Part shown: piece after piece, positions 26,252 through 62,491 of the stretch
How positions within the stretch are numbered: position 1 is the stretch's first letter
Layout of the letters: the number at the start of each line of letters is the position of its first letter
DNA from: Cytophaga aurantiaca DSM 3654
GTDB taxonomy: Bacteria; Bacteroidota; Bacteroidia; Cytophagales; Cytophagaceae
Reading direction: 5' to 3'
DNA: 64,000 bases
NCBI RefSeq assembly: GCF_000379725.1
Contig: NZ_KB903663.1
Span: 1-64,000 of the forward strand
Program-made: the position numbers and the translations under genes
The notes under the pieces: model-generated
The model's input: the letters and a program-made list of their open reading frames with translations, nothing else
The model's database searches: none
Told to the model about the DNA's origin: nothing

Positions 26252-26289
26252 AAAAAAGTCATCCCGATTGTTATCGGGATGACTTTTTT
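26252..26289. terminator. Bidirectional terminator sharing its stem with the one at 55629
   Basis: Arms 26252-26268 and 26273-26289 are perfect 17-base inverted copies (AAAAAAGTCATCCCGAT) with a TGTT loop, between convergent mdh and the type IX cargo gene. The same 17-base arm occurs in the terminator at 55629-55694. Confidence 0.92.
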
Positions 26290-31812: not shown

Positions 31813-31876
31813 TTATTTATTAGCATAAAAAAAACCTCTCGTAATGCGAGAGGTTTTTTTTTATGCTAATAAATAA
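31813..31876. terminator. 64-base palindromic bidirectional terminator
   Basis: Arms run TTATTTATTAGCAT, eight A, CCTCTCG (31813-31841), then TAATG, then the mirror with nine T (31847-31876). Apart from one extra T and the five-base loop the symmetry is complete, well beyond the stem that termination needs. It lies between the convergent FecR-like and receiver genes. Confidence 0.92.
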
Positions 31877-41491: not shown

Positions 41492-41540
41492 AGACATAAA
41501 AAAAGGTCCCGATAAATTATCGGGACCTTTTTTTATGTCT
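41492..41540. terminator. Palindromic bidirectional terminator with 23-base perfect arms
   Basis: Arms 41492-41514 and 41518-41540 are perfect: AGACAT, seven A, GGTCCCGATA and the mirror, with a three-base AAT loop. It lies between the convergent LRR gene and tsf. The stem differs at one position from the one at 288-335. Confidence 0.93.
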
Positions 41541-42431: not shown

Positions 42432-42464
42432 AAAATTGAACATTGGAGGCCAATGTTCAATTTT
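42432..42464 (-). terminator. Hairpin between rpsB and tsf, probable attenuator
   Basis: TTGAACATTGG and its complement pair around an AGG loop, and on the minus strand a T-rich run follows the stem. It is 21 bases past the rpsB stop and 45 before the tsf start. Since tsf has no clear promoter of its own here, partial read-through is likely. Confidence 0.7.
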
Positions 42465-54573: not shown

Positions 54574-55620
54574 ATGAAATTATCAGAATTTAAATTCGCC
54601 TTACCGGCGGATCTTGTTGCACAGCACCCCGCTGCAAACAGAGATGAAGCAAGAATGATGGTTATCAACCGCAAAACCGGAACCATCGAACACAAAATTT
54701 TCAAAGACATTATCAATTACTTCGACGAAGGTGATATCATGGTTATGAACAATACCAAGGTTTTCCCTGCTCGTTTGTATGGTAATAAAGAAAAAACGGG
54801 TGCAAAAATTGAAGTTTTCTTATTACGCGAATTAAATGCTGAATTGCACCTTTGGGATGTATTAGTAGATCCAGCTCGTAAAATTCGTGTAGGGAATAAA
54901 TTATACTTTGGCGATAGCGATTTAGTTGCTGAAGTAGTAGATAATACAACATCACGTGGTCGTACCATCCGCTTCTTGTTTGATGGAAATTCAGAAGATT
55001 TCGCAAAGATCATTGAAACGATTGGAGAAACACCATTGCCACGTTACATCAAACGTCCGGTTGAAGAGGCTGACAAAGATCGTTACCAAACCATCTTTGC
55101 TGAAGCTAAAGGAGCTGTAGCTGCGCCAACTGCAGGCTTACACTTTACAAAACAGGTAATGAAGCGCATGGAAATCAAAGGCATTAACTTTTCTCCATTA
55201 ACGTTGCATGTTGGTTTAGGTTCATTCAGAACAGTTGATGTTGAAGATCTGACGAAACACAAAATGGATTCTGAAAATTTCATTGTTGGTGAAGAAACTG
55301 TTAGAGTGGTAAACAAAGCATTGGATTCAAAAAAACGTGTGTGTGCCATTGGCACTACGTGTATGCGCGCATTGGAATCTTCTGTTTCAGCAAACAACCG
55401 TTTGAAGCAAAATGCAGGATGGACTGATCGTTTCATCTTCCCTCCATATGACTTTAAAATTGCGAATGCAATGCTTACAAACTTCCACATGCCGGAATCT
55501 ACATTGTACATGATGGCTTGCGCGTTTGGTGGTTATGATTTGATGACGAAAGCTTATAAAACTGCCATTAAGGAAAAATATAACTTCTTAAGCTACGGTG
55601 ATGTAATGCTGATCATCTGA
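54574..55620 (+). CDS. queA: S-adenosylmethionine:tRNA ribosyltransferase-isomerase QueA
   Basis: Canonical QueA for queuosine biosynthesis: uses SAM as ribosyl donor on preQ1-34 tRNA. 348 residues, with the motifs [22 protein letters not shown] (in part), [51 protein letters not shown] and [20 protein letters not shown]. It is near the normal family length, unlike the longer copy at 14007. Ends at the 66-base palindrome (55629-55694). Confidence 0.96.
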
Positions 55621-55628
55621 TATAAGTG

Positions 55629-55694
55629 AGATCACACATAATAAAAAAGTCATCCCGATAGCTATCGGGATGACTTTTTTATTATGTGTGATCT
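55629..55694. terminator. Perfect 66-base palindrome, bidirectional terminator
   Basis: Bases 55629-55661 and 55662-55694 are exact reverse complements over all 33 positions, with no spacer. The inner part is AAAAAAGTCATCCCGATAG with the mirror, the outer part AGATCACACATAAT. It separates convergent queA and the small hypothetical gene at 55702. A shorter 8-10 base stem plus T-tract would suffice to terminate, so the outer 14 bases of symmetry need another reason. Confidence 0.95.
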
Positions 55695-55701
55695 GTTTTG
55701 C

Positions 55702-56004
55702 TTAACTGAATTCTACTTCTACAATCGCTATGGTAGGAATATGAATACCGCCTTTCAGCGTAATATATTGCTGATCTGCCGACCAGATCGTAGTATGCAC
55801 CTTCATTAATTTCTTATCTTCTGTAAAAAACGTCATTTTCACTTTCCCGTGATATGCATTTCCCAATCGTTCTGCCTTTTCTAAATATATTTGTCTTAAT
55901 CTTCTTTTTACAGGATCTTCTAATACGTCTATTTTTGAAAATAAAATGGATGATAATTCTTCTTTTTCTATTAGCGTTGCTTCCTGCTGCTGTATTTTTT
56001 CCAT
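55702..56004 (-). CDS. Small hypothetical protein
   Basis: 100 residues from the ATG at 56004 (alternatives 56019 and 56034). After a charged helix (KEELSSILFSKIDVLED) comes PVKRRLRQIYLEKAERLGN, then four beta-type segments: YHGKVKMTFFTED, MKVHTTIWSADQQYITL, KGGIHIPTIAIVEVEF. The IWSADQQYITLKGGI pattern looks like a small beta-barrel (PilZ-like or Sm-like), but no family is recognised. It is isolated: convergent with queA, with fbaA terminator DNA upstream. Confidence 0.7.
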   Translation of the reverse strand: MEKIQQQEATLIEKEELSSILFSKIDVLEDPVKRRLRQIYLEKAERLGNAYHGKVKMTFFTEDKKLMKVHTTIWSADQQYITLKGGIHIPTIAIVEVEFS

Positions 56005-56094
56005 ATTGTTCGCCCTCATTTTACAGTAATCCAATAATGTGTATTACGGAATTAAACAATTATTGTTACTCTATAGTTTGAAATGAAATAAATA

Positions 56095-62421: not shown

Positions 62422-62491
62422 CAAATCACAAAACACAAATTCCAAACGAATAGTGAATGCCGTTCGTTTGGAATTTGTGTTTTGTGATTTG
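62422..62491. terminator. 29-base-arm inverted repeat between convergent genes
   Basis: Arms 62422-62450 and 62463-62491 are perfect inverted copies with a 12-base spacer (TAGTGAATGCCG). There is no classical A- or T-tract, but both flanks are T-rich on the exit strand. TTTGGAATTTGT is present twice directly (62467-62478, 62488-62499). Convergent position (gene ends 62406 and 62502) makes it a likely bidirectional terminator. Confidence 0.75.

Follow-up and report, generated by a model that had tools for sequence, protein, structure and literature searches.

In the 64-kb stretch of Cytophaga DNA analysed here (the window), the 81-bp gap between the queA gene and a convergent 110-aa ORF is mostly taken up by a 66-bp palindrome, which ends 8 bp from the queA stop codon (55618-55620) and 7 bp from the stop codon of the minus-strand ORF (55702-55704). 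An earlier note on this DNA had described a perfect palindrome of 66 bases without a spacer after queA. Indeed, the sequence at 55629-55694 is its own reverse complement, with 33 pairs. It adjoins queA as described, but it is better placed with reference to both convergent genes, whose stop codons enclose it. The features of the locus are as follows.

54574-55620, plus strand: queA (348 aa), the convergent upstream gene; ORF, PF02547 with E 2.5e-133.
55629-55694, no strand assigned: 66-bp perfect palindrome with zero spacer, putative bidirectional intrinsic terminator; exact reverse complement, RNA fold.
55629-55642, no strand assigned: outer arm AGATCACACATAAT on the left, outside the A tract; symmetric over 14 bases beyond the A/T tract.
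55643-55648, plus strand: A6 tract, equal to the T tract for minus-strand transcripts.
55649-55674, no strand assigned: inner stem with 13-bp arms GTCATCCCGATAG / CTATCGGGATGAC.
55653-55670, no strand assigned: apex, formed by the dispersed 18-bp palindromic core TCCCGATAGCTATCGGGA.
55675-55680, plus strand: T6 tract for queA-strand transcripts.
55681-55694, no strand assigned: right outer arm ATTATGTGTGATCT, past the expected end of the plus-strand transcript; 14 symmetric bases beyond the A/T tract.
55702-56034, minus strand: 110-aa ORF, the convergent partner, alignable in two other Cytophaga genomes (G001 and G002); ORF, no Pfam family.

From the outside inward and out again, the element consists of a 14-bp outer arm, A6, a 13-bp stem, the mirrored stem, T6, and the other 14-bp outer arm, and there is no residual symmetry beyond the 33 bp. 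It is the longest inverted repeat of the window. When sequence of equal composition is resampled with a first-order Markov model, at most one arm of at least 14 bp arises per 100-250 kb; thus, the 33-bp arms are not due to chance. The 81-nt intergenic gap has an RNA folding energy of -49.1 kcal/mol (z = -14.2). An Rfam search gave no match. The orthologous gap (window 55625 to 55702) is insertion-prone, with about 1.4 kb (IS transposase-like) in G002 and about 7.1 kb in G001.

Judging from its sequence, the element is very probably a bidirectional Rho-independent terminator serving both queA and the 110-aa ORF. On either strand a T tract comes immediately after the 13-bp inner stem (A6/T6), and the site is just 3′ of both convergent stop codons. 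Either strand would yield a GC-containing hairpin and then U6, and one element would stop both transcripts. It resembles ordinary bidirectional intrinsic terminators in having a GC-containing stem, an A tract before and a T tract after it, and a place between convergent stop codons. It differs from them in that, on either side, the perfect symmetry extends 14 bp beyond the U tract, and in that its centre is AGCT, with no separate loop sequence. A simple terminator scanner did not list 55629-55694, probably owing to pairing of the T tract within the longer stem. The probable function as a terminator is an ordinary one, while the form resembles a known mutational process on an unusual scale.

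Is this palindrome exceptional in Cytophaga? The statistics cover 764 kb of its own genome (G000), 560 kb of G002, and 60 kb of G001, the latter two being the nearest genomes compared (queA identity of 84% for G002 and 87% for G001). There are 17, 12, and 2 perfect inverted repeats, respectively, whose arms reach at least 20 bp and whose spacer is at most 8, which amounts to 31 in 1.384 Mb for the genus, or about 22 per Mb. The class is one of unusually long, exactly symmetric putative terminators found across the genus. The window itself holds further long inverted repeats, of which the following four are described here (no strand assigned to any).

26252-26289: same class, with the core at the apex of an A6/T6 terminator; the G002 orthologue is an unrelated 58-bp perfect palindrome.
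31813-31876: same class, core absent; symmetric over 14 bases outside A8/T9; other symmetric arms in G001 and G002.
41492-41540: same class, 24-bp arms, spacer of 1, core variant TCCCGATAAATTATCGGGA, between convergent ORFs.
62422-62491: long inverted repeat from a different family, with arms of 29 bp and a spacer of 12; present in G001 and G002 at different lengths.

The last of these belongs to another dispersed repeat of the genus, which contains AACAAATTCCAAACG; a related stretch, L134:1512-1546, gave 57 matches in G001 when used as the query. Since the queA palindrome is not exceptional in the genus, its survival, on which the earlier note had remarked, needs no special explanation. Read fold-back artefacts can create palindromes, and the assembly is a draft of 46 contigs, but an artefact of this kind is extremely improbable here: the closed, single-contig G002 genome has the same class (e.g., a 62-bp perfect palindrome), as does G001, and the palindromes occupy dozens of loci with independent flanks.

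The earlier note had started from the premise that SbcCD-type nucleases should remove such a palindrome. This premise fails in the genus, which appears to be without SbcCD, as far as a search with the SbcD model (TIGR00619) can tell. There was no match above the cut-off in G000, G001, or G002, and none whatever in the closed G002 genome; the weak match in the own genome (G000) is an LpxH-type phosphoesterase. The control search was positive in 13 of 14 reference genomes. In G007, a genome of the same family, SbcD was found with an E value of 4.5e-51, with SbcC adjoining. G007 has no arms of at least 20 bp in 400 kb, where about nine are expected at the genus rate. None were found in 250 kb of E. 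coli, nor in 200 kb of G022 and G027, both of which stand outside the SbcD comparison. Ordinary short hairpins are present in G007 (32 per Mb with arms of at least 14 bp, versus 50 per Mb in the own genome). Arms in the SbcCD-positive G007 reach about 17-18 bp at most, while those in the genus without detectable SbcD exceed 30 bp. A survey of the E. coli genome likewise reported few perfect repeats with arms of at least 13 (PMC6060812). The odds seem about even that the absence of SbcCD is what permits the long palindromes, the link being correlational, based on two SbcCD-positive genomes, and confounded by phylogeny. If it does, there would be no ceiling on hairpin length and the palindrome would persist, and Cytophaga would be a natural system for testing which factors limit the length of palindromes in bacterial chromosomes.

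What made the arms so exactly symmetric? The earlier note had left a choice between template switching and selection for full symmetry, and the class-level data favour the former over the latter. Hairpins flanked by A and T tracts were examined for matches between the bases outside the tracts on the left and on the right, with a null in which left flanks were paired with right flanks of other hairpins. At least seven outer bases match in 11 of 61 hairpins of the own genome (0.11 expected) and in 4 of 44 hairpins of G002 (0.09 expected); with only two A/T hairpins, the sample from E. coli was uninformative on this point. The edges were analysed in 105 palindromes from the own genome, G001, and G002 whose arms have 16 bp or more. 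Complementarity beyond the first mismatch was no better than chance (0.263 versus 0.304 for the null), and the stem resumed after a mismatch or a small bulge in only two palindromes. Stems of at least 20 pairs contain no internal mismatch in 21 of 29 cases in the own genome and 14 of 18 in G002 (35 of 47 together). Exact symmetry with abrupt edges holds at the level of the class.

It seems likely that the sharp-edged perfect palindromes of this class were written by template switching. A stalled polymerase would copy one arm of an imperfect hairpin and then return, which would leave a perfect, sharp-edged inverted repeat, the 14-bp outer arms included; the exact symmetry of 55629-55694 was most likely made or renewed in this way. 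Stepwise compensatory evolution should leave imperfect, fading stems, while the stems here are exact and end abruptly, and for this reason templated copying is preferred. In quasipalindrome correction (the Ripley model; the E. coli thyA hotspot), templated copying of one arm produces exact stems with abrupt edges, i.e., perfect repeats in one step (PMC7202029, PMC8604942). That process is known from mutational events in reporters or coding genes, whereas here it would act genus-wide on terminators. The donor arm was sought in orthologue alignments (12 core loci, 6 others, L134, L159, and L202); turnover was seen, but no donor arm could be identified since the intergenic sequence of even the nearest relatives (see the queA identities above) is too diverged. 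Taken as a whole, the explanation that 55629-55694 is a two-way terminator whose arms are rewritten by DNA copying and tolerated through the apparent lack of SbcCD has a probability of roughly 0.6. If it is right, exact pairing in a terminator can arise from mutational copying and not from selection on RNA structure, which bears on methods that take covariation as evidence of function.

Selection for complete pairing is the main competitor. A longer hairpin might give stronger termination or protect the mRNA 3′ end from exonucleases, and compensatory changes between the arms would then maintain it. The long stems look like terminators and occur more often between convergent genes, the hairpin position is kept while the sequence changes symmetrically, and a compensatory pair (ATACTAAAAT/ATTTTAGTAT versus ATGCTAAAAT/ATTTTAGCAT) exists at one locus. 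On the other hand, intrinsic termination leaves a transcript that ends in the U tract and lacks the 3′ outer arm. Thus, selection for pairing within the terminated RNA cannot readily act on the 3′ outer arm, which lies past the U tract. The abrupt end of pairing with no residual complementarity, the scarcity of one-mismatch stems next to perfect ones, and the lack of G-T enrichment at the first mismatch (13 of 105) also speak against it. Moreover, tandem hairpins have outer symmetry too: at least seven outer bases match at 4 of 23 tandem sites and 7 of 36 convergent ones. Since outer symmetry is somewhat greater at the convergent sites, selection may contribute, but as the explanation of the symmetry it is rather unlikely.

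Comparison of the three Cytophaga species revealed turnover. All have a hairpin directly 3′ of queA and the stems are unrelated: 66 bp in the own genome, 20-bp arms (AAAGCAAAGAAGCTCCTGAG) in G001, and an 11-bp arm in G002. According to the earlier note, the idea of selected symmetry would fail if relatives kept only the inner stem with unrelated flanks; in G001 and G002, neither the inner nor the outer sequence is kept, only the position of the terminator. Selection for a conserved symmetry at the queA locus was rejected, the post-queA hairpins of the relatives being unrelated. Arm changes that stay symmetric, for which the same note had suggested looking, were indeed found, as orthologous positions carry different yet symmetric arms, an observation that also speaks for templated copying. 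Besides the unrelated 58-bp perfect palindrome of G002 at site 26252, symmetric arms with differing sequences exist in all three species at site 31827, and at the L134 locus the own genome and G001 have long arms of different sequence while G002 has a short stem only.

The apex of the queA palindrome is formed by the 18-bp core, and TCCCGAT-N0-8-ATCGGGA occurs at 36 loci in the own genome, 23 of them exactly TCCCGATAGCTATCGGGA. Half of these copies (18 of 36) lie between convergent ORFs. About 20 core loci extend to perfect palindromes of 38-72 bp with locus-specific arms; long palindromes that have no core are common too. The distribution is patchy: 36 copies in the own genome, 2 in G001, 2 in G002, 36 in G007, 23 in G006, and 19 in G004. 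Phylum-wide, the exact 18-mer was found in 23 of 296 genomes, all of the same taxonomic class, and the copy number in a single genus ranges from 0 to 30. Outside the own genome, it stands as a bare 18-20-mer and not at hairpin tips. Hairpin energies at the core are -20.4 kcal/mol in the own genome versus -5.8 for the null, and those in other genomes equal the null. General loop targeting by the core found no support, since outside the own genome it sits in arbitrary flanks. The papers searched contain no report of the core word. In G007, many of the copies examined (L289-L306, L219) share longer flanks (cgacgcaaggagggtgagtttc..agcgtaatggttataaag), the core being inside a larger repeat.

At four own loci, the outer stem is common to G002 and the centre has been exchanged for the core: AAAAAGACCTG..CAGGTCTTTTT, AAATAAAAAGG.., AATGG..CCATT, and GCCTTG..CAAGGC, the last being less exact. 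Thus, the core came to the tip of pre-existing terminators. Could the 66-bp palindrome, or a MITE/REP-like unit that it copies, have been inserted as one piece? The presence of the core at 36 loci, a locus with a similar core and partly similar outer arms (ATTATRTGTGAT at C9:35278), and a loss of homology to G001 and G002 that coincides almost exactly with the palindrome would fit such mobility. However, the outer arms differ at nearly every other copy, the core is a bare 18-20-mer elsewhere, and the outer stem is older than the core at the four loci above, which makes whole-element mobility improbable. A constant body with a target-site duplication, as expected of a MITE, was not found, since the arms differ between copies. 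Even less probable is a role of the 18-bp palindrome as operator for a dimeric DNA-binding protein, with the symmetry of the flanks being incidental. An exact 18-bp dyad at many loci would suit an operator, but the sites are mostly 3′ of genes and not upstream, the copy number varies from 2 to 36 within one genus, and sister species lack the core at the same genes.

Template switching alone leaves the spread of the core to 36 loci unexplained. A more speculative, and on balance unlikely, proposal is that in a natural SbcCD-free genus template switching continually writes and enlarges terminator palindromes and that the core acts as a minimal palindromic unit, of which copies enter hairpin loops, i.e., terminator tips and the D and anticodon loops of a tRNA-Leu. 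A second, broken copy of tRNA-Leu(CAA) at L198:14040-14180 (C6:84040-84180) contains two full cores and one partial core. Relative to the intact neighbour, two cores replace AAC of the D-loop and AAT of the anticodon loop, with no visible target-site duplication at the cores of this copy. Between the tRNA-Leu copies lies a GIY-YIG nuclease ORF (PF01541; L198:14142-14603) that has the core in frame (..SVPIAIGMG..). A role of the nuclease as general companion of the core found no support, as it was found at this one locus only.

Some known families of repeats resemble the core. REP/REPIN palindromes of the GTAG and CGTC families (PMC3733652) are likewise short, dispersed, extragenic, and patchy between species, but the core here is 18 bp without a spacer, has locus-specific arms, and lacks a conserved GTAG/CGTC foot. 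No such foot was seen in 33 own and 28 other flanks read by eye. A search for the presence of Y1 (RAYT-type) transposase genes found them in all five genomes covered, the two-core genomes included. In the uptake-sequence terminators of Neisseria and Haemophilus, an inverted pair of a short repeated word forms the terminator stem. The core likewise pairs a repeated word in inverted orientation, but the half-word TCCCGAT is without strong excess (86 in 764 kb; median 41 and maximum 169 for letter permutations). Rickettsia palindromic elements and similar ones are coding palindromic insertions. The in-frame core of the GIY-YIG ORF recalls them, whereas most copies here are in terminators and only 18 bp long.

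Two further observations concern hairpins of the own genome. The core palindromes at L131:1540 and L131:4031 (C24), 2.5 kb apart, share the stem GACCTG, while G002 has GACCTG at one site only, which suggests copying between neighbouring terminators. The hairpin AAAATTGAACATTGG-AGG-CCAATGTTCAATTTT at window 42432-42464 hardly differs between the three Cytophaga species, in contrast to nearby terminators, which change fast, and is possibly a conserved regulatory RNA element.
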